Source: Caldichromatium japonicum (GTDB lineage: Bacteria > Pseudomonadota > Gammaproteobacteria > Chromatiales > Chromatiaceae). From it: DNA of 64,000 nt. Shown in pieces: positions 1,968-16,290 of the stretch (within the stretch, counting starts at the first letter, position 1; every line of letters begins with the position of its first letter). The position numbers and the translations under genes are program-made. The notes under the pieces are model-generated. The model was not told the origin of the DNA. It saw only the letters and a program-made list of their open reading frames with translations, and made no database searches. The stretch lies in NCBI RefSeq assembly GCF_011290485.1, contig NZ_CP048029.1:2800501-2864500 (forward strand), read 5' to 3'.

Positions 1968-2067
1968 GGCTTACTCGTTGGTGTTCTGTCGAACGCCAAA
2001 CAATTTCGCTAGATTCATGAGCTAATCAGATTCAATCATGATCACTCATGACTCACCCCCTTTCTTA

Positions 2068-3036
2068 TTGATAAGAAACACATGCTTTTGAAATTGAGTG
2101 AGCTGTCCTGATGTCGTGGGCATGGAAAGACGAGACATGAGATTGCTGTCGTTTGCGGCGCGCGAAGGGGCCCAAGGGCTCAAGGAAAGGTGGGTGAGAA
2201 GCGGGCGCTGTTGGCGGAGCAGGACGCCCAGATACGCAAGCTCATGTGCGACGGGACACCGGATGAGCTGAAGCTGCCGTTTGCGCTGTGGAGCCGGCAG
2301 GCGGTGCGGCAGTTGATCCTCGACCGTTTTGGCATCGAGCTCAGGCCGCAGGGGGAAGGCAAGTACTTGGCGCGCTGGGGATTGACGCCCCAGAAACCGA
2401 TTCGGCGCGCCTATGAGCAAAGCCCGCCGGCGGGCAAGACGTGGCTTGAGGAGACCTACCCGGACATTGCCCGGCGCGCCAAGGCCGAGGGCGCCGAAAT
2501 CCACTGGGGCGATGAAACGGGGCTGCGCTCGGACGAGGTGCGCGGGCGCTCTTATGCGCCGGCGATCAAGACGCCCGAGATTCGCGTCACGCACCGTCGC
2601 GAAGGCCTGTCGGTGATCTCGACGCTGACCAACCGCGGCAAGGTGCGTCGGAAGGCGTTCGCGGGGGCGATGAACGCCGACATCCTGATCGACTTCATGA
2701 AGCGGCTCGTCAAGGACGCCAGGGGCAAGAAGATCTTCCTCATCCTCGACAACCTGCGCGTGCATCACACCAAGCCGGTCAAGGCCTGGCTGGCTGCATG
2801 CGCCAATCAAATCGAGGCCTCCTCCCTCCCCTCCTACAGCCCAGCACTGAACCCCAACGAGATGCTCAAGGCCACCATCACCGCGCAGGCGCCCTCCCGC
2901 GCCAAGGGCGATCTGAAGAAGGCGACCGTCAGCCACCTGCGCCGCCTTCTCAATTCCCCCCAACGCATCATGCGCTACTTCCAGCATCCCAAGCTCCATG
3001 ATGCCACGTAATACAAGTTCATTGGTTTCGGATCAA
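2068..3036 (+). mobile_element. IS630-family element, copy 1
   Basis: Imperfect terminal inverted repeats begin TTGATAAGAAAC on the left and, read inward from the right, TTGATCCGAAAC. Both ends are flanked by TA (2066-2067 and 3037-3038), as expected for IS630/Tc1-type insertion at TA. The element is 969 bases, nearly identical to 13689-14685 and in the same orientation. It is shorter because of a small extra deletion near the transposase start. Its left neighbour is the region upstream of the tnpB remnant; its right neighbour is the truncated RCC1-like gene. Confidence 0.92.
2190..3011 (+). pseudogene. IS630-family transposase, N-terminally truncated
   Basis: The 273-residue product begins at GTG and carries the DDE triad of IS630 transposases: Asp in HWGDETGLRS, Asp in LILDNLRVHH, and Glu in the YSPALNPNE block. 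The N-terminal helix-turn-helix of full-length relatives (about 340 residues) is missing. Upstream, an out-of-frame stretch reading MERRDMRLLSFAARE looks like the original N-terminus, joined by a deletion to the linker before RGRRK. The catalytic domain looks intact, but the protein probably cannot bind element ends normally, so I treat it as a defective gene. Confidence 0.8.
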
Positions 3037-3038
3037 TA

Positions 3039-3984
3039 GATCGCTTATCCCCAAGCTGGCCATACCAGTTGTTGCCCCACAAGGCGAGTTGTCCATCAGC
3101 CAGTTGCGCCAGTCTATGCAGGCTGCCTAAGCGCACGGCAGTTGCCTGGTACTCAGGAGGACCGATGGTGACCCGCACCGGTGCAGCGCTGGGCAGGAGG
3201 CTGCCATTGCCGAGTTGACCATAGTCATTGTTGCGGCCCCAGGCCCACAGGCTGCCGTCTTCGGTATAGGCCACGACATGCCATTCATTGGCATTGATCC
3301 CTTTGACCCTAAACTCACTTAAAGCGGTCACCTTGACCGGCACAGTCTCGATATCCGTAGCGGCACCGAGACCAAGCTGCCCCTCCCTGTTATTGCCCCA
3401 GACCCATAGCTGACCGTCGCTGGTGATCGCAAAGCTTTCCGCATAGTCGGCCGCGGCGGCGGTGACATTGGATAAACGGCTGACCTGCACGGGGACCCCC
3501 GACCACTCCCCCCCAGCCCTTGCGCCCATTGCCAAAGCGCCCATAGTCACCTAGGCCCCATACCTAAAGCGTCCCATCCGAGCGCACCGCCAGGCTATGA
3601 AACTGACCGGTCGCAATCGCCGCCACACCCGTTAGATTCATCACTTGAACAGGTAGGGGACGATCGGTTTTGGGTCCCGTCACCGAGTACACCCCACTCA
3701 TTTTGACCCCAGCCCCAAACCGTACCGTCGGCGCGCAAGGCCAATGTATGATTGGCCCGGGCAGCGATCGCGACGACATCGGTCAGACCCTTGACCCGAA
3801 CCGGCAGGCCGCTGAATAGACCTGCCCCTGACTGACCAGTGCCGAGCTGACCAAAGGTGTTATCGCCCCAGGCATACACCGTCCCATCGCTATGGGGCGC
3901 CACCGAGTGTTTCTCACCGGCCGCAAGCTGGGGGGTAACGGCCTCAGACACGGCCGACCCCAGCTCTAGACCAGTGAGCAGCAT
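3039..3984 (-). pseudogene. RCC1-repeat (seven-bladed propeller) protein, broken
   Basis: RCC1 blades are evident: SDGTVYAWGDNTFGQLGTG, ADGTVWGWGQNEWG, RSDGTL, SDGQLWVWGNNREGQLGLG, EDGSLWAWGRNNDYGQLGNG and DGQLALWGNNWYGQLG. A hydrophobic N-terminus (LLCIGMLLTGLELGSAVSEA) suggests export. The reading frame shifts after NEWGV, a TAG replaces the expected Trp codon after SDGTL (stop at 3564), and another frameshift precedes VPVQVSRLSNV. The 3' end is cut by the IS630 element at 3037. Bacterial RCC1 proteins are often secreted or surface-associated; the original role is unknown. Confidence 0.85.
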
Positions 3985-4170: not shown

Positions 4171-7100
4171 TTGAACATCGGTATCCAGATGCAGATGGCA
4201 CCTCCTCAGTCTCTATCCCCCGAGATCCTAATCCCGGTCTTCAACGCCTATGAGTCGGTCAAACGCTGTGTGCACAGCGTGCTGCGCTATACGCCGATCG
4301 ATTGCCCCATCCGCATCCTCGATGATGCCAGCACCGATCTGCGCCTCTTGGCTTGGCTCGATGAGTTGGAACTCAAGGAGCCGCGGGTTAGGCTGGAGCG
4401 GGCGGATGAAAACCTGGGCTTTGTCGGCAATGTCAACCGGGGGCTGGCAACGGCCCAGGGTGATGTCATCGTCCTAAACTCAGATACCCTGGTAACCCCC
4501 AGCTGGGTCGAGCGATTGGTCGAGTGCGCCGCAAGCGACCCGCAAATCGGCATCGTCTGTCCGCTTTCAAACAATGCGACCATCCTCTCGGTCCCTCTGA
4601 TGAATGGGGATAATCCCATCCCCGATGGGCTGACGGTCGACCGTTTCGCAGCCCTGATCGCCGCACACAGTGCCCGCCGCTACCCGCGTCTGCCGGTAGC
4701 GGTGGGCTTTTGTATGTTGATCCGGCGAGCGGTGATCGATCGTCTCGGCCTTTTGCATCGCGCCTATCACCGCGGCTATGGCGAGGAATGCGACTATTCA
4801 TTGCGTGCCTGGGAGGCGGGATTTGCGGTGGCCTGTTGCGATGAGGCATTCGTTTATCACCAGAGCGAACAAAGCTTCGGCGCCGTCTTAGGCATGACCG
4901 AGATCAAGCAGCGCAACGAGGCGGTCCTCTTGAGCCGCTGGCCCTTTTATCATCACCTGATCCGCCGCTTTTGTCAGCTCAATCCGTTGCGCGATGTCCA
5001 AGAACGGATCCTAACCGGCCTGGCAGAGGCCCGCGGCGACCGCGCGCCCCATGTCCTCTACGTCATCCATGCCTATCACAGCCTAGGCGGCACCGAGCTG
5101 CATTCGCGCGCGCTCATGGAGGGTCTGGCCGACGAGTATCGGATGACCCTGGTCTTTCCCGACGAGACCGACCCCTATCGCGATCTTCAGTGTATCGAGG
5201 AGGATGGACGCCTGCGGGTATTGGCCTATCAACGCGCCCTGATCGAGGGGGGGCCGCGGCTGTTTGGTCAGGTCATGAGCCTGCGCAACCCGGCCGTCGA
5301 GTCAAGCCTTGCCCGGCTGATCGCCGGCGGTGCGATCAAGCTGGTCCATTTTCAGCATCTCCTGGGCTGGGGGAGCCTGGAGCTTCCGGTGATCGCGCGC
5401 CGTCTAGGGGCGGCGGTGGTCTTAAGCTTGCATGATTATTTCTTATTCTGTCCTGTATTTGACATGCTCCGGCCCAAAGGCGAGCCCTGCGGCAGGCCAT
5501 GCGTTGATCCCGACGACCCAGGGTGTCTGGATTGCTTGAGACAACAGGCTTCGATCGATGAGGATGAATGGCGTCCCTTCCTGCACGCGCGTCGCCAAGG
5601 GCTGTTGGCGATCTTCGAGGCCGCCGATGCGATCATCGCCCCCTCGCGTTTTGTCTTGCAGCGCTTTATCCGCGCCTATGGCGAGGCGCTGGCGTCCAAG
5701 GTGCGGTTCATCCCCCATGGCCTGCCTGATCTGGGATCGCCCCTGCCGCCCAAACGCGCCCAGCGTTTTCGAATCGGTGTCTTTGCCAATCTGACCCGCC
5801 GTAAGGGCGCTGAGCGCCTGCTGGAGACCCTGGCGCTCCTTCAACGGCGGCGGGATCTAGAGGTCCTGCACTTTGGCGGCGTTGAGCCGGTCTATAAGGA
5901 CGCCCTGGTGGCAGCAGGTGTGGGGCTCAGGGGGGTCTATCGGCATCAGGACCTCAGGCGTCTCGTCGCTGAGGTGGATCTCGCCCTGGTCCCCTCGGTC
6001 TATGAGGAGACCTTTTGTTTGACGATCGCCGAGCTTCAGGCACTCGGGGTGCCGGTCTTGACCTTTGCGGTCGGCGCCATCCCCGAGCGAATTGCCGATG
6101 GGATCACAGGGTTCTTGGTCGATGAACCCAGCGCCAAGGCCTTGGCGGCGCGCATCGAGGAGCTCATCGCCATACCTGAATTGGTGCAGCAGGTCCGCGC
6201 CTCTTTGCGTCAACAGCGCTACAGGCGGCTCGATGAAAACCGGCAGGACTATGCCGCCTTGTATGAGCAGTTGCTGGGGGAAGTGGCGGGACGGCCAAGC
6301 GTCCCCTTGGAGAGGGTGATCGCTGAGCTGGAGGAGCAGGGGGCCATCGTTGAGATGTCAGCCGCCCTGCCCGAATCCTTCATGCCGGGGTGGTGGATCA
6401 GGCGAGAGGGGCACCTGCGCAAGGGTCCGCTCGCCAAAACGTCGGTCCCTTCCCTGTCTCCTGCCGCCTATGGCTCAGGCGAAGAGCGGCGCTGGATTGT
6501 GCTTGTGGGGGGTGAGGAATCGCCCTGTGGTCTGCAAAGACAGACAAGCGCCGGTCTAGACCTGTTGCTGGTCATCCTGGAGGTCGAGGAGGATCCTGAC
6601 GCCTTGGCCAGGACCTTAGACTCACTCAGAACGGGATGGGCAGGCAGGCTGCGTATCCTGATCATCAGCCCTCCAGTCTCTGCCTCCGCGGAGGGGAGGG
6701 AAGGGACCCAGCCTGCGGCCTACATTGAGCCATCCTCCTCCCAGACATTCTCCTCCCAGAGGGCAGGGCGCGATCTCGCCTGCACCTGGCTGCGGCTCAG
6801 CCCCAGACAATCGGCGGTGCGCCTGATCAATCGCTGGATCGCCGCACAGACAGGCGATTGGATCGGCTGGATGAAAGCTGGTGACCAGCTTCACCCCTCT
6901 GCTCTTTATCTAATCGCCGACTGGAGCAACCGCCATCCACACTGGCAGTTCATCTATACCGATGAGGATCGGATCGCCGAGGACGGTCGGCGTTATCAGC
7001 TGTGTTTTAAACCAGACTTTGACCTGGATCTGTTGCGCTCCCAGGCTTATCTCGGCGATCTCTGTCTGATCAGACGCGAGGTCTTTTTGACATGCGCTGG

Positions 7101-9249
7101 CCTGACGCCAGCGCTTGAGGTGGCCCAACTTGATCTGTGTTTAAAGGTCGTCGATGCCTATGGCGAAGCAGCCATCGGGCACATCCCGCAGGTCCTTTAT
7201 CATCGCGCCGATTGGCGTCCTTACCGGCCCCCTGACTTTGAGTCGATCAGCAAGGTCATTGCCTCGCACTTTAAACGGCGTGCTCTGCGCGCCCTGATTC
7301 GCCCGACCTCGTTCGCTGGGATCTATTGGGTCGATTATCCCCGAAACCCCAAAAACCAGACGGCGCTGGTGATCCTCACCTGCGGGGATACCCAGGCGGT
7401 TGCTGACCTGATCCAGTCGGTCCAGCCGTCCATCGATGCCAAAGAGGTCCTAGTCCTCGATTTCAAACGCCAGGGGAGCGCTGGGCGCCCTCGATGGCCG
7501 GATCCTCACTGCCGCTGGCAAGGCGCTGAGGGTCCGCTCGCCCGTTCGCTCAACCGCGCCATCCGCCGCCTGCGATCGGAGCGGGTGCTGGTCATGCATG
7601 ATGGCCTGCGCGCCCGGCCCAATTCGGCGCTCTCCATCCTACTCGGCCTGATCGATCGGCCAGAGGTCGCCTTGGTCGGACCCTGTCTCCTGGACCCACA
7701 GGGGCGCATCCTCCAGGCCTATCCGCTCCTCGGCTTTTGGCCCCTCGGCGCCCTGGGCCAGGTGCATCGCGGTCACAGCCTGGCTGAGACCGGCGGCCCT
7801 CTCAATCGCCATCTCTGTGTCCAGCGTTGTGCGACGGTCTCGGATCAGGCATTTATGCTGTGGCGGCCTGCCTTCCTCCAGGCAGGTGGATTTGCCGAGG
7901 AAAACTTTGCAAATGCCTGGTGGTTGCTCGATCTGGGGTTGCGACTAGGCCAACTGGGCTATCGGGCCCTTTGGGCCCCGCATGCTACCCTGTTTGCAAG
8001 CGCAACCGGCAGTTTTCAGGGTTATCGCCGACGACTGCTCAAGGATCTGAGGATCGCTGAAGAGACCGCGCGGCTCTATGGGCGCTGGCTGCCGCAACTT
8101 GCCCGCGATCCGGCCTATCATCCCCATTTGAGCCTGCGTCGCTTCGATGCCCGACCTGAGACCGAGATCCGCCTCAGCTGGGATCCAGAGCGCTGTCTTC
8201 TCCCGCGGTTCCTTGGTTTTCCAGGCGATCTGACAGCCAGCGGTCATTATCGGGTGATCGATCCCCTCTCGGCCTTGCATACCCATGGCCTGGCCTGTGT
8301 CACTTGGATCGATCCAGACCCCGGGATCCGCCCGCCGAGCGTTGTCGAGCTCGAACGCCTGCAGCCGGATGTCCTGCTTTTACATAATGCACTCCATGAC
8401 CGACACCTACAGGCCCTTGAGCTGTATCGGCATTACAACAGGGCCAGGCTGGTCTTTACCCTCGATGACCTGATCACTGATCTTCCCCCCTGGAACCCCT
8501 TTAGGCAGACCAATTACCCAGATCTCGATCGCCGCTTAACCCGCGCGCTTGGCCTCTGCGACCGGCTGCTGGTCAGCACCCCGCTGCTTGCCGAGTTTTA
8601 TGGCAGCCGGCATGCGGATATCCGGGTGGTGCCGAATCGTTTAACCCGCACACGCTGGCAGGGCCTGGCCGATCTCGCCGAGTCGATGCGAGAGTTCGGG
8701 TGTCGGCCGCGGATCGGCTGGGCGGGTGCGGGGCAGCACCTGGGTGATCTCGAGTGGCTGCTGCCGGTCGTCGAGGCCCTGGCCAGGGAGGCCGATTGGT
8801 GTTTTTTCGGCATGTGTCCAGATGAACTCAGGCCCTATGCCGCCCAGGTCCTGCCGATGGTCGATTTTGCCGATTATCCAAAGACCCTCGCTCGGCTAGG
8901 GCTTGATGTTGCAATCGCCCCCCTGGCGTTGCATGATTTCAACCGCTGCAAAAGTCCGCTTAAGATCCTAGAATATGGCGCGCTCGGTCTACCGGTGATC
9001 TGCACCGATATCGAGCCCTATCGCGAGGCACCAGTCGAACGCCTGCCCAATCAGCCCGACCTCTGGATCGAGGCCCTGCGCGCACGCCTAGCCGATCGAG
9101 AGTCGGCCCGTCAGGAAGGCAGGCGGCTTAGACACTGGGTCGAGTCCGGCTGGATGCTAGAGGATTCTCTCGAAACCTGGATCGAGGGGTTGTCGTTTTT
9201 GGGCAACAAGCCGCCAGACACGTTTTCATCAGCACAGGGGGGAGAGTAA
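4171..9249 (+). CDS. Giant multi-module glycosyltransferase (GT2-GT4-GT2-GT2-GT4 layout)
   Basis: This 1692-residue protein has no signal peptide and is probably cytoplasmic. Residues about 17-270 form a GT2 module (ILIPVFNAYESVKRC, LNSDT as the DxD-like site, GYGEECDYSLRAWE). Residues 293-705 form a GT4 module (HAYHSLGGTELHSRAL; PSVYEETFCLTIAELQALG as the donor-site motif). Residues 797-1050 are a second, divergent GT2 (YTDEDRI, KPDFDLDLL). Residues 1062-1310 resemble a third GT2-like part, and 1345-1690 a GT4-like module (LDDL, SPLKILEYGALGLPVI). The TTG start has AGGA 9 bases upstream; an ATG at 4189 lacks one. The next gene starts 2 bases after the stop. It probably builds a multi-sugar chain; donor and acceptor are unknown. 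Confidence 0.85.
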   Translation: MNIGIQMQMAPPQSLSPEILIPVFNAYESVKRCVHSVLRYTPIDCPIRILDDASTDLRLLAWLDELELKEPRVRLERADENLGFVGNVNRGLATAQGDVIVLNSDTLVTPSWVERLVECAASDPQIGIVCPLSNNATILSVPLMNGDNPIPDGLTVDRFAALIAAHSARRYPRLPVAVGFCMLIRRAVIDRLGLLHRAYHRGYGEECDYSLRAWEAGFAVACCDEAFVYHQSEQSFGAVLGMTEIKQRNEAVLLSRWPFYHHLIRRFCQLNPLRDVQERILTGLAEARGDRAPHVLYVIHAYHSLGGTELHSRALMEGLADEYRMTLVFPDETDPYRDLQCIEEDGRLRVLAYQRALIEGGPRLFGQVMSLRNPAVESSLARLIAGGAIKLVHFQHLLGWGSLELPVIARRLGAAVVLSLHDYFLFCPVFDMLRPKGEPCGRPCVDPDDPGCLDCLRQQASIDEDEWRPFLHARRQGLLAIFEAADAIIAPSRFVLQRFIRAYGEALASKVRFIPHGLPDLGSPLPPKRAQRFRIGVFANLTRRKGAERLLETLALLQRRRDLEVLHFGGVEPVYKDALVAAGVGLRGVYRHQDLRRLVAEVDLALVPSVYEETFCLTIAELQALGVPVLTFAVGAIPERIADGITGFLVDEPSAKALAARIEELIAIPELVQQVRASLRQQRYRRLDENRQDYAALYEQLLGEVAGRPSVPLERVIAELEEQGAIVEMSAALPESFMPGWWIRREGHLRKGPLAKTSVPSLSPAAYGSGEERRWIVLVGGEESPCGLQRQTSAGLDLLLVILEVEEDPDALARTLDSLRTGWAGRLRILIISPPVSASAEGREGTQPAAYIEPSSSQTFSSQRAGRDLACTWLRLSPRQSAVRLINRWIAAQTGDWIGWMKAGDQLHPSALYLIADWSNRHPHWQFIYTDEDRIAEDGRRYQLCFKPDFDLDLLRSQAYLGDLCLIRREVFLTCAGLTPALEVAQLDLCLKVVDAYGEAAIGHIPQVLYHRADWRPYRPPDFESISKVIASHFKRRALRALIRPTSFAGIYWVDYPRNPKNQTALVILTCGDTQAVADLIQSVQPSIDAKEVLVLDFKRQGSAGRPRWPDPHCRWQGAEGPLARSLNRAIRRLRSERVLVMHDGLRARPNSALSILLGLIDRPEVALVGPCLLDPQGRILQAYPLLGFWPLGALGQVHRGHSLAETGGPLNRHLCVQRCATVSDQAFMLWRPAFLQAGGFAEENFANAWWLLDLGLRLGQLGYRALWAPHATLFASATGSFQGYRRRLLKDLRIAEETARLYGRWLPQLARDPAYHPHLSLRRFDARPETEIRLSWDPERCLLPRFLGFPGDLTASGHYRVIDPLSALHTHGLACVTWIDPDPGIRPPSVVELERLQPDVLLLHNALHDRHLQALELYRHYNRARLVFTLDDLITDLPPWNPFRQTNYPDLDRRLTRALGLCDRLLVSTPLLAEFYGSRHADIRVVPNRLTRTRWQGLADLAESMREFGCRPRIGWAGAGQHLGDLEWLLPVVEALAREADWCFFGMCPDELRPYAAQVLPMVDFADYPKTLARLGLDVAIAPLALHDFNRCKSPLKILEYGALGLPVICTDIEPYREAPVERLPNQPDLWIEALRARLADRESARQEGRRLRHWVESGWMLEDSLETWIEGLSFLGNKPPDTFSSAQGGE

Positions 9250-9251
9250 CC

Positions 9252-10700
9252 ATGAGTCGGATCAAGGCACCTCAGGCCGCGGTCAGTGCGGCCATCCTCG
9301 GGATGGCCTGTTATGGTCAGGGGACGGAGTCAAACGCAGATGCAGTGCTTGTGCCAGGTAGACAATTGTTCGCCGCTGTCAGTAATACAGCAGCGCCGCT
9401 GGCAACGAGCACAGCGCCGGATGAATCCACGGTCCTTGCCAGTGGCGCGGCCCTCGATCAGGCAGCGGCCTCGACCAGCAATACCAATACCCAAGGGGTG
9501 GCGGGGACATTGTTCCACGCCTGCCACAGCGGTGCCAATGTGGGAACCGTTTTCCAGAGCGACTGCGATCTCTTGCTCAGGGGCGCGACGCAAGACCCTG
9601 CGGGGGTCGCCCAGGCCCTGAGCGTCCTGACCCCAGATCAAGTCTTGGCCCCGCGCAACGAGTCGGTCCAGCAGGTCAGCGCCGGGTTGGGTGTGGTCTC
9701 CATGCGACTGGAGGGACTGCGCTCAGCAGCCCGCGATCAGGTCTCGGTGACATCATTGGCCGCTCAGATGTTGCGCCAGGCCACTGGCGGCGGTGCGAGC
9801 GCGGACCTTGACCTGGGTCGCGGCGGCCTCTTTTTTAATCTCAAATATCTCGACACCGAACAGGATCGCAACCGCTATACCTCGGGCTATGATCAGGATG
9901 GCCTGCGCCTGACCCTGGGTGCGGATTACCGGGTCCAGGACAATCTCATCCTGGGTCTATTTGCAAACTACGCCTCGGCCGATACCAGCTATTGGCTCAA
10001 CAAGGGCGGGATGGATACCACGACCTGGGGCCTGGGGCTCTATGGGACCTATTACTGGGACAATGGGTCATTCATCGAGGGCTCGCTCGGCTATGACACC
10101 CATGACTATGATCTGACCCGCCGGCTCGATTACAGCATTGTGGTCGACGGGGTGAGGACCCAGGTCAGACAGCTGGCGATATCCGACCCCGATGGCCGGA
10201 CCTTCTATGCCAGCCTCGGCGGCGGTTACAACCTCGATGTCCAGGCATTCACCTTAATGCCGAGCCTAAAGTTCAACTATCTGCGCAACCATCTAGATTC
10301 CTATCACGAGCGCATCTCTGATCCGAGCGCACCGGGTGGAGGCATGGGGCTCGCCTTTGATTCGCAGACCTATGAATCCTTCACCTCGCGTTTGGGATTT
10401 ACCATCGCCCGCGCCTTTAGTTCAGGGGTCGGCGTTTGGGTCCCGCAGCTGAGCCTCGATTGGGTCCATGAGTTCTCAGCAGACCAAAAGCAGCTGGCCG
10501 CGCGCTTCGTCAATGACCTAAGCGCAACACCGCTGGCCCTCACCACCTCCAGTCCAGACCGCAATTATTTTGACCTGGGAATTGGTCTGGCCGGTCAGTT
10601 CGCCCAGGGCCGTTCGGCATTTATCTCGATCAATAAGCTCTTGGGCTACGAGGATATCGAGCACTACAGCATCACTGGCGGGGTGCGGATGGAGTTTTAA
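9252..10700 (+). CDS. Autotransporter-type outer-membrane beta-barrel protein
   Basis: The 482-residue product has an N-terminal hydrophobic stretch (AAVSAAILGMACYG) that may be a signal peptide. A short Ala/Ser/Thr-rich region of about 150 residues follows, with a Cys pair around CHSGANVGTVFQSDC. A helical linker (LSVLTPDQVLAPRNESVQQV) leads into about 280 residues of alternating aromatic beta-strands ending GGVRMEF, the terminal Phe typical of outer-membrane barrels. This matches the autotransporter barrel family with an unusually short passenger. It starts 2 bases after the giant glycosyltransferase stop, so the two are probably co-translated. The short passenger could be the glycan acceptor, or the protein may be a porin-like component; both ideas are inference. 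Confidence 0.85.
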   Translation: MSRIKAPQAAVSAAILGMACYGQGTESNADAVLVPGRQLFAAVSNTAAPLATSTAPDESTVLASGAALDQAAASTSNTNTQGVAGTLFHACHSGANVGTVFQSDCDLLLRGATQDPAGVAQALSVLTPDQVLAPRNESVQQVSAGLGVVSMRLEGLRSAARDQVSVTSLAAQMLRQATGGGASADLDLGRGGLFFNLKYLDTEQDRNRYTSGYDQDGLRLTLGADYRVQDNLILGLFANYASADTSYWLNKGGMDTTTWGLGLYGTYYWDNGSFIEGSLGYDTHDYDLTRRLDYSIVVDGVRTQVRQLAISDPDGRTFYASLGGGYNLDVQAFTLMPSLKFNYLRNHLDSYHERISDPSAPGGGMGLAFDSQTYESFTSRLGFTIARAFSSGVGVWVPQLSLDWVHEFSADQKQLAARFVNDLSATPLALTTSSPDRNYFDLGIGLAGQFAQGRSAFISINKLLGYEDIEHYSITGGVRMEF

Positions 10701-10777: not shown

Positions 10778-13528
10778 TCAATCCATACCGCGGATGGCGG
10801 CGATCAATCCTTGCAATCGCGCCATGATCTTGGGGGTGCGCTGGCGGCGGCTTTGAATGGCTGTAGGGTCCCAGCTCCAAGACGAGTCTGCCGGGAGCAG
10901 GCCGATCTCTCCCAAGACCCGCCGCGCCTCGGACTCGGGATCAGCGGCCAGTCTTTCATAGATGACCCGGCTAGGCCTGATCCCATAGAGCGCAAACAGG
11001 CTGTGCAATTGGCGTTGGGCAAAGGTCAGCAGCTCAAGCCTGCGGATGAGATCCACTGGGGTCAGCTCAGCCAACACCCTTTCTAGCAGATCAGGGGGAT
11101 AGGCACCCGACCAACAACCGGTGCGCTCAGCCACCAGATAGGACATCGCCTGGGCGAGAAGGTCTTGGCGTTCGATCCAGATAAACCGGACCCTCGGCCA
11201 GTGGTGGGGGATGACCCCGATACGCCACAGGAAAAAGAGCTGATCCCAGCTCAGTTTGACCGCAAACCTGGGACCGAGCTCGGTCTTCAGATGCAGAAGA
11301 TAGTCAGATAGATCCTGGAGCCCTAGACGCTCACAGGTCTTGATGAGATGCTCGCCTGTAAAGGCCTCCTCGGCGCGATTGATCAGGCCGCTAGCGGCAA
11401 GTGATTTGGCTAGGAGGTTTGAGCCGCTGCGATTGGTGAAAGCGATCACGACCACCAGCTCAGGGGGCTCTTCAAGGGCAGGCGGTCGAGGCCCAGGGCG
11501 GTCACCAAGGGGGCGGGCAAAATGACGCAGGATCAGGCGCTCATGGATCCCCGGTTCATAGTCAAGCAAAAAGGGCAAGGGCTTAAGTGGTAAGGGCGCT
11601 TGTCCTGCTCCCCCAAGATCTTGCTGGGCAGCGTCCCTCAGCCCCTGCACCTGTCCAGGGAGAGGTTGGGCGCAGGCCCCTTGCAGCGGAAGACGTCCCA
11701 GCAGCCAATCGGTATCGGCCAGATAGACCGCGATGGAACGGGATGTCGGCAGTTCCCTCGACGCGAATTGAAAGGCGTGGTAGCCATCTCCCTTGCCGGC
11801 CTGGACGAGGTCAGCGCGGAAGGCATCAGCGCGCAGGCGCCGCCAAGGTTGACCATCGACCCGCACCTCAACCCACAGGTGGAGGTCTGGCGCGCGCGGC
11901 GACCAGATCCAGCCGTGCAGGGTGCCGTCGATGATCCCATCGAGATGACCCTCGATGAGATCCGATGGGGGCTCGGTGTGCAGTTGCCTGATCTCGGCCA
12001 GCAGGGCCCTGTAGGCCTCAGGTGCATTGGCGCGCCAACGTTCGACGATCTGCCGATTCGTCAGTCTCTCGGTGGGGAGGGAAACCGAAAGCTGAAGACC
12101 CTGAGAGGCCGCCAACCAGTCCCGGTACTGGGCCAATTGGTCAGGGAGGTTCTGTTGGCGCGGCCCATAGCCCTCTCGCAGACAGTATGCGCACAGGGCC
12201 TGCGGGTACCTTTGATCCAGGATCCCGGTGCGGATCGACTGAAATGGTTGGCCCTGCCAAAGCTGCTTGGCATCGATCTCACCGAGCTGACCCACTGAGG
12301 GCCCTGCGTCATGGGCAAAGCAGCAGGGCTTGGTATGACCGCTGCGTCGGACATAGAGGGTCTTGAAGGGCTCGAGACAATAAAAGGGCTCAGGGCCGGG
12401 ATAGGGGGCAAAGGCCAAGACCGTCTCTAGCGCCTCGGGCGCAAGCCGCCCGGTATCGAGCCGGGTCTCGGTCGCATGTCCAGGCGGCGGGCGGTGCGGC
12501 TGAAGTCGGCGGGCGGCGCTGGGGAGCTCAGCAAGCGGCAGGGTCGCCGAGACATCGCCGCGCGCCGCGCGCCAACTGGACTCATCGGCCACTGCGGTCT
12601 GGCGGTATTGGTCGGTCGAGAGGATGAGCCCATGCGCCTGCGCCCGGCGTTCGGCCTCTTCCAGGATCGGCGCATCGATCCAGGGTCTGAAGATCGCCCG
12701 ATGGCCGGCCAGTTCCTTGGTGGTCTCAAAGGTCTGAAGCGCCTTGAGATGAATGATCTCAACCCCGCAGTCGGCCATGAGGTCAACGAACCGAGGAAGA
12801 TCTCTGACCTGGTGTTCAAAGGCAATCGAATTGACCTCGATACGCGGATAGCGCCGGTTGAACGCGCGTTTATACTCGGTAAGCCGCCGGATGCCCGCAA
12901 GCACCCGATCAAACCGTCCTCCGAGATAGACCGACTCATATGCCTCAGCGCTCACCCCCGAGATGCTCAGGGTGACGCTAAAGACCCAGTTTTCCACGAG
13001 GAGCTCGCAGAACTGCTCATCGAGATGCATGCCGTTCGTGAAAAAATCGATCAGGACCCGATAGGTGCTCAGCTGCTTGATGAGCCCGATAAAATCCGGA
13101 TGCAGGGTCGGTTCGCCGTAGCCGAAACAATGGACGCTGATCACCTGCGGCAGGATCGGCTCAAGGCTCGGCCATAGCCGCTCGAGGTCGATGAAGCCGC
13201 GCTCTTGCTCCTTGATCGAGAATAGCCGGCTGGGGCTTAGACCCGAGAAGGTCGGGCACATGGCGCACTTGAGGTCACAGACATTACTGACCTCGAGGAA
13301 GAGCTCTGCTGGGGCCTCGGGCGGCGGGCCACCCTGAGACCAGGCCGAAAGACGCGCGATCGCCTCCAGACGCTGGGGCCACCAATCAAGCCCCGCAGGG
13401 AGATCGCCGTTGGTGGGGTGAGCAGCTGGTGACCCGTTGGTGTCTGTAAGGCTGGGGGCCTCTTTGAAGGGGGTAGGGGGCTCAGCGGTCATGGGGGGGA
13501 TGCCTGGATGAGTAACAGGTTGATGCAA
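10778..13528 (-). CDS. Radical SAM/SPASM enzyme fused to a beta domain and an Stf0-type sulfotransferase
   Basis: The product has 916 residues. Residues 75-330 form a radical SAM domain with the CX3CX2C cluster motif at Cys84, Cys88 and Cys91 and a GGEP-like GYGEP at 136-140. Residues 380-455 look like a SPASM domain with Cys384, Cys402, Cys403, Cys446 and Cys449 for an auxiliary cluster. Residues 524-618 hold a small beta domain with the GWIWSPRAPDL and VDGQPWRRL pattern seen appended to large glycan-modifying enzymes. Residues 690-880 resemble Stf0 sulfotransferases: TNRSGSNLL as the PAPS 5'-phosphosulfate loop and ERQDLLAQAMSY as the 3'-phosphate site. It is convergent with the glycosyltransferase/barrel pair. 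SPASM proteins commonly modify peptides; here the substrate is unknown. Confidence 0.87.
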   Translation of the reverse strand: MHQPVTHPGIPPMTAEPPTPFKEAPSLTDTNGSPAAHPTNGDLPAGLDWWPQRLEAIARLSAWSQGGPPPEAPAELFLEVSNVCDLKCAMCPTFSGLSPSRLFSIKEQERGFIDLERLWPSLEPILPQVISVHCFGYGEPTLHPDFIGLIKQLSTYRVLIDFFTNGMHLDEQFCELLVENWVFSVTLSISGVSAEAYESVYLGGRFDRVLAGIRRLTEYKRAFNRRYPRIEVNSIAFEHQVRDLPRFVDLMADCGVEIIHLKALQTFETTKELAGHRAIFRPWIDAPILEEAERRAQAHGLILSTDQYRQTAVADESSWRAARGDVSATLPLAELPSAARRLQPHRPPPGHATETRLDTGRLAPEALETVLAFAPYPGPEPFYCLEPFKTLYVRRSGHTKPCCFAHDAGPSVGQLGEIDAKQLWQGQPFQSIRTGILDQRYPQALCAYCLREGYGPRQQNLPDQLAQYRDWLAASQGLQLSVSLPTERLTNRQIVERWRANAPEAYRALLAEIRQLHTEPPSDLIEGHLDGIIDGTLHGWIWSPRAPDLHLWVEVRVDGQPWRRLRADAFRADLVQAGKGDGYHAFQFASRELPTSRSIAVYLADTDWLLGRLPLQGACAQPLPGQVQGLRDAAQQDLGGAGQAPLPLKPLPFLLDYEPGIHERLILRHFARPLGDRPGPRPPALEEPPELVVVIAFTNRSGSNLLAKSLAASGLINRAEEAFTGEHLIKTCERLGLQDLSDYLLHLKTELGPRFAVKLSWDQLFFLWRIGVIPHHWPRVRFIWIERQDLLAQAMSYLVAERTGCWSGAYPPDLLERVLAELTPVDLIRRLELLTFAQRQLHSLFALYGIRPSRVIYERLAADPESEARRVLGEIGLLPADSSWSWDPTAIQSRRQRTPKIMARLQGLIAAIRGMD

Positions 13529-13688: not shown

Positions 13689-14685
13689 TTGATAAGAAAC
13701 ACATGCTTTTGAAATTAAGTAAGCTGTCTAATTATAGTGGGCATGGAAAGATTATAGTGGGCATGGAAAGACGAGACATGAGATTGCTGTCGTTTGCGGC
13801 GCGCGAAGGGGCCCAAGGGCAAGCGGGGTAGGCGCAAGGTGGGTGAGAAGCGGGCGCTGTTGGCGGAGCAGGACGCCCAGATACGCAAGCTCATGTGCGA
13901 CGGGACACCGGATGAGCTGAAGCTGCCGTTTGCGCTGTGGAGCCGGCAGGCGGTGCGGCAGTTGATCCTCGACCGTTTTGGCATCGAGCTCAGGCCGCAG
14001 GGGGAGGGCAAGTACTTGGCGCACTGGGGATTGACGCCCCAGAAACCGATTCGGCGCGCCTATGAGCAAAGCCCGCCGGCGATCAAGACGTGGCTTGAGG
14101 AGACCTACCCGGACATTGCCCAGCGCGCCAAGGCCGAGGGCGCCGAAATCCACTGGGGCGATGAAACGGGGCTGCGCTCGGGCGAGGTGCGCGGGCGCTC
14201 TTATGCGCCGGCGATCAAGACCTCCGAGATTCGCGTCACGCACCGTCGCGAAGGCCTGTCGGTGATCTCGACGCTGACCAACCGCGGCAAGGTGCGTCGG
14301 AAGGTGTTCGCGGGGGCGATGAACGCCGACATCCTGATCGACTTCATGAAGCGGCTCGTCAAGGACGCCAGGGGCAAGAAGATCTTCCTCATCCTCGACA
14401 ACCTGCGCGTGCATCACACCAAGCCAGTCAAGGCCTGGCTGGCTGCATGCGCCAATCAAATCGAGGCCTCCTCCCTCCCCCCCTACAGCCCGGCACTGAA
14501 CCCCAACGAGATGCTCAAGGCCACCATCACCGCGCAGGCGCCCTCCCGCGCCAAGGGCGATCTGAAGAAGGCGACCGTCAGCCACCTGCGCCGCCTTCTC
14601 AATTCCCCCCAACGCATCATGCGCTACTTCCAGCATCCCAAGCTCCATGATGCCGCGTAATACAAGTTCATTGGTTTCGGATCAA
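13689..14685 (+). mobile_element. IS630-family element, copy 2
   Basis: This 997-base element has the same terminal inverted repeats as copy 1 and TA on both sides (13687-13688 and 14686-14687). Near its left end a segment of about 20 bases (ATTATAGTGGGCATGGAAAG) is tandemly duplicated. On the right it abuts a tnpB C-terminal fragment; no tnpB sequence is present on its left. It therefore does not sit in a simple insertion. It is a direct repeat of 2068-3036. Confidence 0.92.
13794..14660 (+). pseudogene. IS630-family transposase, N-terminally truncated (copy 2)
   Basis: The 288-residue frame opens at TTG with the linker GPKGKRGRRK and then follows copy 1 closely, including the DDE residues in HWGDETG, LDNLRVHH and SPALNPNE. 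A handful of residues differ from copy 1 (for example PPAIKTW for PPAGKTW and QRAKAEG for RRAKAEG). It lacks the same N-terminal DNA-binding region as copy 1, so both copies appear to derive from one already deleted element. Movement would need an intact transposase elsewhere, as judged from domain content only. Confidence 0.8.
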
Positions 14686-14686
14686 T

Positions 14687-14875
14687 AATGCCGCGCTCAA
14701 CCTCAAACAGCTGGCAACCGCAACTGCCCTACCCGGGGCGAGTCCGTCCGGTAACGGCGGCGCTACAGCAGAGAGGGTCTCTGCCGTAGTCGGGAAAGTC
14801 ACGCCTGTCAGAGACGAATGCGCTCCGCATTCGGGGCAGGAAGAGAACAGTGCGCCTGTTTGCGCACTGTCTTGA
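14687..14875 (+). pseudogene. tnpB-like C-terminal fragment
   Basis: The 63 codons reading NAALNLKQLATATALPG through to VCALS and a stop match the C-terminus of the tnpB remnant at 1145, on the opposite strand. The fragment begins directly at the TA flanking IS630 copy 2. The rest of the gene is not on the far side of that element. Confidence 0.88.
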
Positions 14876-14881
14876 GAGCAG
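14687..14881. repeat. Right 195-base inverted repeat of the island
   Basis: This is the reverse complement of 1139-1333 with a few substitutions, including CTTGAGAGCAG at its outer edge. It stops 4 bases short of the glmU stop codon at 14886-14888, so both island edges are the same element end facing outward. Confidence 0.9.
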
Positions 14882-14885
14882 GGAC

Positions 14886-16250
14886 CTATTCCCTCTTCAA
14901 TGGCCGCCTCCACCCCTCGACCGTTACCTGACGCGCCCGGGCAAGCGTCAGGCGGTCGGGGGGGACATCGCGGGTGATCACTGAGCCTGCACCGATAGTG
15001 GCATAAGCCCCAATCCTGACTGGGGCCACTAAGGCGGTATTCGAACCGATGAATGCCCCATCCTCGATACAGGTCGGATGTTTGTTGACCCCATCATAGT
15101 TGCAGGTGATAGTCCCAGCGCCGATATTGACACCGAGACCGATCTCGGCATCGCCCAGATAGCTTAAATGATTGGCCTTGCTCCCCTGAGCGATGCGGCT
15201 CTTTTTGACCTCGACAAAGTTGCCGATGTGGACCGCATCGGCAAGTTCGGTCTCTGGACGAATCCGGGCAAAGGGACCGATCCGCACCTGGCTACCGACC
15301 CTTGCCCCTTCGATCACCGAATGGGACAACACCTCGCTATCAGCCCCGATCGTACAGTTCTTAAGCAAACAATAGGGGCCGATCCGCACCCCTGAGGCCA
15401 GGTGCACCTCGCCCTCGATGATGACGTCGATATCGATAAAGACATCGGGCGCAGCGATGAGTCGCCCGCGCAGATCAAAGCGATCGGGATCGGCGAGGGT
15501 CACCCCCGAGCGCATCAACGCCTCGGCCTGCCCGCGCTGATAGATGCGTTCGAGCTCGGCCAGTTGCTGCCGGTCATTGACCCCGAGGATCTCGTGGATG
15601 CCCTGCGGCTGGGTGGTGGCGATCGGAATGCCCGCCTGCGCTGCCAGGGCAATGATGTCGGTGAGGTAATATTCGCCCTGGGCATTGTCATCGCCGATCT
15701 GAGCCAGCCAGCCCTCTAGATGCCGGCGCTCGGCCACCAAAAGGCCGGTATTGACCTCACGGATTTGGCGTTCTGCCTCATCCGCATCCCGCTCCTCCAC
15801 CACCCGCAGCACCCGCCCCTGTTGATCGCGCACCACCCGCCCATAGCCGGCTGGGTCAACAAGCTCAGCGGTCAAAAGGGCTAAGGGTGTCTCCTCGGCA
15901 AGCGCAAGCAATGCCTTGAGCGTCTCGGCCTGGATCAAGGGCACATCGCCATAGAGCACCACGACCTGATCCAGGCCGTGGAGCACGGGCAGGGCCTGCA
16001 TGACGGCATTTCCAGTGCCGCGCTGTTCGGCCTGTTCCACCCAGAGACAATCTGGATCAGGAAAGGCGGCGCGGACCTGCTCGCCGCCATGTCCGTAGAC
16101 GATGATCAGGCGCAGGGGATTGAGCGCACGCGCGGTCTCCAAGACATGGGCAAGCAGGGGGCGCCCGGCCAAGGGGTGTAAGACCTTGGGTAAACACGAA
16201 CGCATGCGTTTGCCCAGACCGGCGGCGAGGATCACAACACCTGTGTTCAT
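14886..16250 (-). CDS. glmU: Bifunctional UDP-N-acetylglucosamine pyrophosphorylase / glucosamine-1-phosphate acetyltransferase
   Basis: GlmU acetylates glucosamine-1-phosphate and couples it to UTP, giving UDP-GlcNAc. The N-terminal uridyltransferase has VVILAAGLGKRMRS with the signature Lys/Arg loop, LYGDVPL and EVNTG. The C-terminal left-handed beta-helix shows hexapeptide repeats (IGNFVEVKKSRI, NIGAGTITCNYDGVNKH, FIGSNTALVAPV). The length of 454 residues is normal. The ATG at 16250 is preferred over the in-frame TTG at 16262, because the TTGGAG around that TTG is the ribosome-binding site. It lies downstream of atpC, separated by a terminator. Confidence 0.97.
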   Translation of the reverse strand: MNTGVVILAAGLGKRMRSCLPKVLHPLAGRPLLAHVLETARALNPLRLIIVYGHGGEQVRAAFPDPDCLWVEQAEQRGTGNAVMQALPVLHGLDQVVVLYGDVPLIQAETLKALLALAEETPLALLTAELVDPAGYGRVVRDQQGRVLRVVEERDADEAERQIREVNTGLLVAERRHLEGWLAQIGDDNAQGEYYLTDIIALAAQAGIPIATTQPQGIHEILGVNDRQQLAELERIYQRGQAEALMRSGVTLADPDRFDLRGRLIAAPDVFIDIDVIIEGEVHLASGVRIGPYCLLKNCTIGADSEVLSHSVIEGARVGSQVRIGPFARIRPETELADAVHIGNFVEVKKSRIAQGSKANHLSYLGDAEIGLGVNIGAGTITCNYDGVNKHPTCIEDGAFIGSNTALVAPVRIGAYATIGAGSVITRDVPPDRLTLARARQVTVEGWRRPLKRE

Positions 16251-16261
16251 CAGGCACTCCA

Positions 16262-16290
16262 AGAAAAACGCCCCGGTTAGGCGGGGCGTT
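16262..16290 (-). terminator. Rho-independent terminator after atpC
   Basis: On the minus strand AACGCCCCG and CGGGGCGTT form a 9-base stem around a 6-base loop, followed by a T-run. It would end the ATP synthase transcript just before glmU. It overlaps the region upstream of the glmU start, so glmU may depend on read-through or on its own promoter. Confidence 0.85.

Follow-up and report, generated by a model that had tools for sequence, protein, structure and literature searches.

A single protein chain encoded in the genome of Caldichromatium japonicum joins a Twitch-type radical SAM enzyme to a GW-type beta domain and an Stf0-type sulfotransferase. The gene lies on the minus strand of the 64,000-nt stretch of DNA analysed here (hereinafter the window), and Pfam, AlphaFold and Foldseek agree on the three parts in the order claimed for them in the original prediction. 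Every one of these domains is already known. Their union, which places radical chemistry and sulfation on one chain, is undescribed in the literature searched; that search, whose coverage left out most subscription journals, returned no described enzyme with this order. We propose, with moderate confidence, that the protein is bifunctional and acts in the cytoplasm, altering a surface glycan by radical chemistry and also sulfating it.

Domain architecture and predicted active sites

The open reading frame gives 916 residues when counted from a TTG codon. In P0012, a relative with 71% identity, the start codon is an ATG that lines up with the one at 13492 (M13), so a 904-residue product beginning at 13492 is likelier. 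Pfam matches above the gathering scores were obtained for Radical_SAM (PF04055; 3e-14) and SPASM (residues 384-449; 4e-6) in the N-terminal half, and for Stf0 Sulphotransf (residues 780-879; 2e-11) and Sulfotransfer_3 (5e-6) in the C-terminal half. With five sequences AlphaFold gave a poor model (pLDDT 53), and one built on a 30-sequence alignment was used instead. Its mean pLDDT is 84; the radical SAM/Twitch, seven-stranded beta and sulfotransferase regions are well defined, and confidence is low in residues 1-41 and 618-658. Because the stand-alone Stf0 rows of the alignment were misplaced in their own N-terminal half, the placement of the domains relative to one another is not readable from it.

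Table 1. Positions in the window of the fusion gene, its parts and the adjoining genes
Feature	Position	Strand	Basis
Radical SAM/Twitch - GW beta domain - Stf0 fusion	10778..13528	-	Pfam, alignment, AlphaFold, Foldseek
CX3CX2C, C84/C88/C91	13256..13279	-	sequence; invariant in fusions and clade relatives
Radical SAM core, Pfam residues 79-219	12872..13294	-	Pfam; pLDDT about 80-98
GYGEP SAM-site motif, residues 136-140, inside the radical SAM core		-	
Twitch domain, C384-X12-G-X4-C402 C403 ... C446-X2-C449	12182..12379	-	Pfam, alignments, motif definition in PMC6231123
GW-type beta domain, residues 526-614, seven strands	11687..11953	-	model; also on a GT2/GT4 protein
Linker between radical and sulfotransferase halves, residues 618-658	11555..11677	-	pLDDT below 50; length differs among relatives
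Stf0-type sulfotransferase domain, residues 690-912	10793..11461	-	Pfam, local alignment, model, Foldseek
5'-PSB loop NRSGSNLL (R700)	11411..11434	-	aligned to 1TEX QRSGSTLL; invariant
E721, candidate catalytic base, ExF stretch aligned to Stf0 QEFF	11366..11368	-	alignments
3'-phosphate-binding motif R787...S796	11141..11170	-	alignments; motif role in PMC11625862
1692-aa multi-domain glycosyltransferase (GT2, GT4, further GT-like regions)	4171..9249	+	Pfam; co-occurs with fusion
482-aa autotransporter-type beta-barrel protein	9252..10700	+	2 bp after glycosyltransferase; convergent with fusion gene

The N-terminal half belongs to the radical SAM superfamily by its Pfam match, its fold and the anticipated CX3CX2C motif, whose three cysteines are the predicted ligands of the SAM-cleaving [4Fe-4S] cluster. 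The further prediction of SPASM-type cysteines was half right. The SPASM motif is defined as CX9-15GX4C-gap-CX2CX5CX3C-gap-C (PMC6231123), which supplies seven cysteines and two auxiliary clusters. The fusion protein has the part shared with Twitch enzymes, namely CX12GX4CC and CX2C, but CX5CX3C-gap-C is absent, and inspection of the sequence found no cysteine between residues 449 and 619. The cysteine count thus rules out a full SPASM domain and leads us to expect a single auxiliary cluster, the number typical of Twitch enzymes, in which the SPASM domain is truncated. The five cluster-type cysteines beside CX3CX2C (C384, C402, C403, C446 and C449) are conserved in every aligned member of the radical SAM clade, and all eight cysteines are invariant in the aligned fusions and radical SAM relatives (eleven clade members). 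The radical half holds the motifs needed for SAM cleavage.

The nearest structures to the radical half found by Foldseek include the sugar and cyclitol enzymes DesII, BlsE and BtrN and the peptide-acting SuiB and SkfB; PqqE and MoaA were matched as well. BlsE and DesII (7VOB, 8HZV) rank at the top by fold, and BlsE is also the best match in a sequence search of the PDB (E 1.5e-6). The substrates of these two radical SAM enzymes are nucleotide-linked sugars. Unlike the fusion protein, both are stand-alone enzymes with no sulfotransferase, and their reactions differ. BtrN, the Twitch radical SAM dehydrogenase of the butirosin pathway (4M7T; Foldseek E 1e-5), shares the CX3CX2C core and the single auxiliary Twitch cluster, but it has neither a GW nor a sulfotransferase domain, acts on a free aminocyclitol and is only 14% identical over the structural match. 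A defence role was rejected; the radical SAM core gives weak viperin-like matches only (27 bits), and its neighbours give none.

The predicted GW beta domain is real, with seven strands in the model, and a GT2/GT4 protein from another locus (L036, residues 72-158) carries it too, at its N-terminus.

The sulfotransferase fold expected at residues 690-880 was recovered by both the domain search and Foldseek. The structural match to Stf0 trehalose 2-sulfotransferase (1TEX, PF09037) has an E of 1e-5 and a TMt of 0.61, and a local alignment to the same protein spans both PAPS motifs. The fusion domain has the Stf0 fold, the RSGS PSB loop, the 3'-phosphate motif with its serine and a glutamate at the candidate base position, and can be classed as an Stf0 sulfotransferase. 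Stf0 itself is a stand-alone enzyme. The fusion domain scores only 36.7 bits (37 when rounded) against the 400-bit cut-off of the trehalose 2-sulfotransferase equivalog (NF047724), and it falls outside that family. E721 is invariant and aligns near the Stf0 base; by analogy with Glu36 of Stf0, it is a candidate catalytic base. Both PAPS motifs are present and invariant, as RSGSNLL (R700) and RxDLLAQ..S (S796), and the sulfotransferase half thereby keeps the PSB arginine and the 3'-phosphate serine described for sulfotransferases (PMC11625862). The window genome encodes an APS kinase, so PAPS can be made in it, and the fusion protein holds its only Stf0 domain.

Recurrence of the fusion and of its gene neighbours

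A listing of proteins with the same domain order, as the original prediction had suggested, covered 210 genomes from the taxonomic order and found the full architecture in six of them, distributed over three genera (four in the genus of the window and one in each of two others). Since all six encode one chain, the fusion is neither a chance product nor a misassembly, and an assembly or frameshift artefact is ruled out. The motifs of both catalytic halves are all kept in the six orthologues, down to about 50% identity. An Stf0 domain of any kind is present in 12 of the 210 genomes, half of which have it as this fusion; in a class-wide sample, it is present in 5 of 369 genomes and is fused to this radical SAM enzyme in the window genome only. 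Broad profile searches of the phylum and class found no further members of the radical SAM clade, which is therefore rare in the samples searched.

The fusion gene keeps company with the glycosyltransferase and barrel genes. Among 209 genomes searched, with only two candidates per genome scored after a first look, those with a full-length glycosyltransferase orthologue are precisely the six that bear the fusion, and the barrel partner has the same distribution. All three genes lie together in five genomes, and in the sixth (G026) the fusion gene and the glycosyltransferase-barrel pair lie on separate contigs; in G005, the glycosyltransferase is read in two frames that overlap. A naive calculation puts the chance of such an overlap between genomes at 9e-12, a figure that ignores kinship, four of the six genomes being of one genus. 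Because shared ancestry leaves about three independent cases, we treat the co-occurrence as good, not overwhelming, evidence. It makes a role shared with the neighbouring glycosyltransferase likely, in line with the earlier suggestion that neighbouring genes make the substrate.

Sulfotransferases are coupled to this radical SAM clade repeatedly, as a C-terminal Stf0 domain in Chromatiaceae, as an N-terminal Sulfotransfer_1 domain or as the product of a neighbouring gene. Specifically, four Thiotrichales proteins from three genomes have an N-terminal Sulfotransfer_1 domain, one or two radical SAM/Twitch units and a C-terminal Methyltransf_24 domain, and two of the four have Methyltransf_11 too. 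These proteins and the Stf0 fusions fall in separate supported groups of the radical SAM tree and carry different sulfotransferase families at opposite ends, so that two independent origins of the fusion are likely. Glycosyltransferase genes adjoin one of the Thiotrichales fusions (L091). In another Chromatiaceae genus (L058), genes for a glycosyltransferase, a Sulfotransfer_3 protein and the radical SAM enzyme follow one another on the same strand with gaps of 126 and 2 bp, and this glycosyltransferase shares 30% identity with the N-terminal part of its counterpart in the window. In L055 and L094, from the same genus as L058, Sulfotransfer_1 genes lie within about 4 kb of the separate radical SAM gene. 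A match to PF03567 in the gene convergent to the radical SAM gene in L057 was left out of the firm evidence, being below the cut-off (18.6 against 22) and having a PDB match that was not significant. Alphaproteobacterial relatives carry another, unassigned C-terminal region in place of the sulfotransferase, and no sulfotransferase was recognised near the clade members of L025, a prophage, and L031.

Among described pairings, the swf operon of a sponge symbiont (PMC3908369) comes nearest; in it, sulfotransferase and radical SAM genes share one operon. Unlike the fusion, the reductase-sulfotransferase SwfB and the B12-type radical SAM enzyme SwfC are encoded by separate genes, and they belong to a polyketide pathway.

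Several further arrangements of radical SAM genes were observed. A gene of the same clade lies between GDSL-domain and endolysin genes in an Ochrobactrum prophage (L073:5616-7046 and L025:9980-11410). Several tandem, distantly related radical SAM genes stand beside epimerase and dehydrogenase genes in the genus of the window (L032 and L033). One Thiotrichales genome (L092:5173-14440) encodes two nearby proteins with radical SAM/Twitch and Methyltransf_24 domains, one of which adds Sulfotransfer_1 and Methyltransf_11.

Proposed function and alternatives

In the order of steps that we infer, the N-terminal half would act first, abstracting a hydrogen atom from a sugar-like substrate by means of SAM and its [4Fe-4S] cluster. 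The single Twitch cluster would probably accept the electron, giving a BtrN-like two-electron oxidation, and the Stf0 half would then sulfate a hydroxyl on the same glycan, with PAPS as donor. The GW beta domain may hold the glycan or tie the enzyme to the glycosyltransferase. The acceptor would most likely be built by the neighbouring multi-domain glycosyltransferase, and the barrel protein may display the glycan or be exported together with it. Our best guess of a two-electron sugar oxidation is made by analogy with the role of electron acceptor proposed for the Twitch cluster of BtrN (PMC9012708), and other radical reactions are possible. If one glycan is indeed the substrate of both halves, this would point to modified sulfated sugars of a new class in these sulfur bacteria.

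The wider comparison permits a more tentative suggestion, which we regard as possible rather than probable: that Twitch radical SAM enzymes coupled to sulfotransferases form a family whose product is a radical-modified sulfated sugar not seen before. The radical step would make or remodel the position that the fused sulfotransferase then sulfates, and the fusion would have arisen two or more times, with sulfotransferases of different families. The recurrent fusions provide a concrete set of proteins for testing sulfotransferase-coupled radical chemistry.

The original prediction named a surface glycan or peptide as the substrate. Comparative evidence favours the glycan, and the model, which has no N-terminal RiPP recognition element (RRE), a domain that binds a leader peptide, speaks against the peptide. 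Instead of such a domain, it has disordered residues 1-41 and a single helix (residues 50-63) before the radical SAM barrel. Some RiPP radical SAM maturases do without an RRE, so its absence from the model lowers, and does not exclude, the likelihood of a RiPP maturase role.

A protein substrate in a broader sense is unlikely, and several observations nevertheless point to it. Both halves would act on the barrel passenger or another secreted protein, which the large glycosyltransferase would glycosylate in the cytoplasm, in the manner of TibC with autotransporters. Only 2 bp separate the barrel gene from the glycosyltransferase gene before it, and the two stay paired even at a different location; passenger residues 26-85 are enriched in serine and threonine (23%, against about 15% in the rest) and in alanine (25%); and SuiB and SkfB are near structural matches. 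There is precedent for autotransporters in the BAHT/TibC heptosyltransferase systems (PMC4358343), in which a glycosyltransferase gene likewise stands beside an autotransporter-type barrel gene. The likeness is one of gene adjacency, no radical SAM or sulfotransferase component is described for those systems, and the glycosyltransferase of the window is much larger and multi-domain. Evidence against this reading, besides the missing RRE-like domain, is that the passenger is short, with its first 60 residues variable among relatives, and that elsewhere the radical SAM clade pairs with sulfotransferases, methyltransferases and glycosyltransferases where this barrel was not seen nearby.

We consider it improbable that the halves are two separate enzymes joined for co-expression, each with its own small-molecule substrate, such as a nucleotide sugar for the radical half and a glycolipid for the sulfotransferase half. 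Independent fusions and neighbourhoods with different sulfotransferase families point to a shared pathway. The low-confidence linker of variable length would suit separate enzymes, as would the use of nucleotide sugars by DesII and BlsE and the existence of clade members with no sulfotransferase.

Very improbably, the radical half is a maturase of metallocofactors or of the anaerobic sulfatase type, with an incidental link to the sulfotransferase: the metalloenzyme maturase families TIGR04317 and TIGR04311 are its best NCBIfam matches and a Sulfatase-fold gene adjoins one relative (L056), but the scores are far below the cut-offs (82 against 380 and 77 against 400; 20 against 349 for the anaerobic sulfatase maturase family TIGR03942), the second of the two auxiliary sites of that maturase is absent, and the sulfatase-fold neighbour occurs in that relative only.

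Boundaries of the gene block

The glycosyltransferase-barrel-fusion block lies between a glmS-like gene (1-1170) and glmU (14886-16262); it adjoins glmU in L028 and L029 and a glmS-like gene in L027. Two IS copies with a DDE_3/HTH_33 transposase flank it in the same orientation (2046-3011 and 13752-14660, or 2190-3011 and 13794-14660 by narrower limits; 98% alike over 300 nt). A composite transposon was ruled out by L028 and L029, in which the glycosyltransferase gene adjoins glmU with no IS gene between them, and the copies therefore look like later insertions. A 208-nt inverted repeat, 95% alike, links the start region of glmS (1136-1343) with the stretch just after glmU (14677-14884) and may be the trace of an earlier rearrangement. 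At 2975-3984 of the window, an RCC1-repeat gene is present as two pieces; the gene is longer in the close relative L021 (19261-22185, on the same contig as G003), where it has a DUF4214 domain, and the window copy, beside an IS copy, appears broken.
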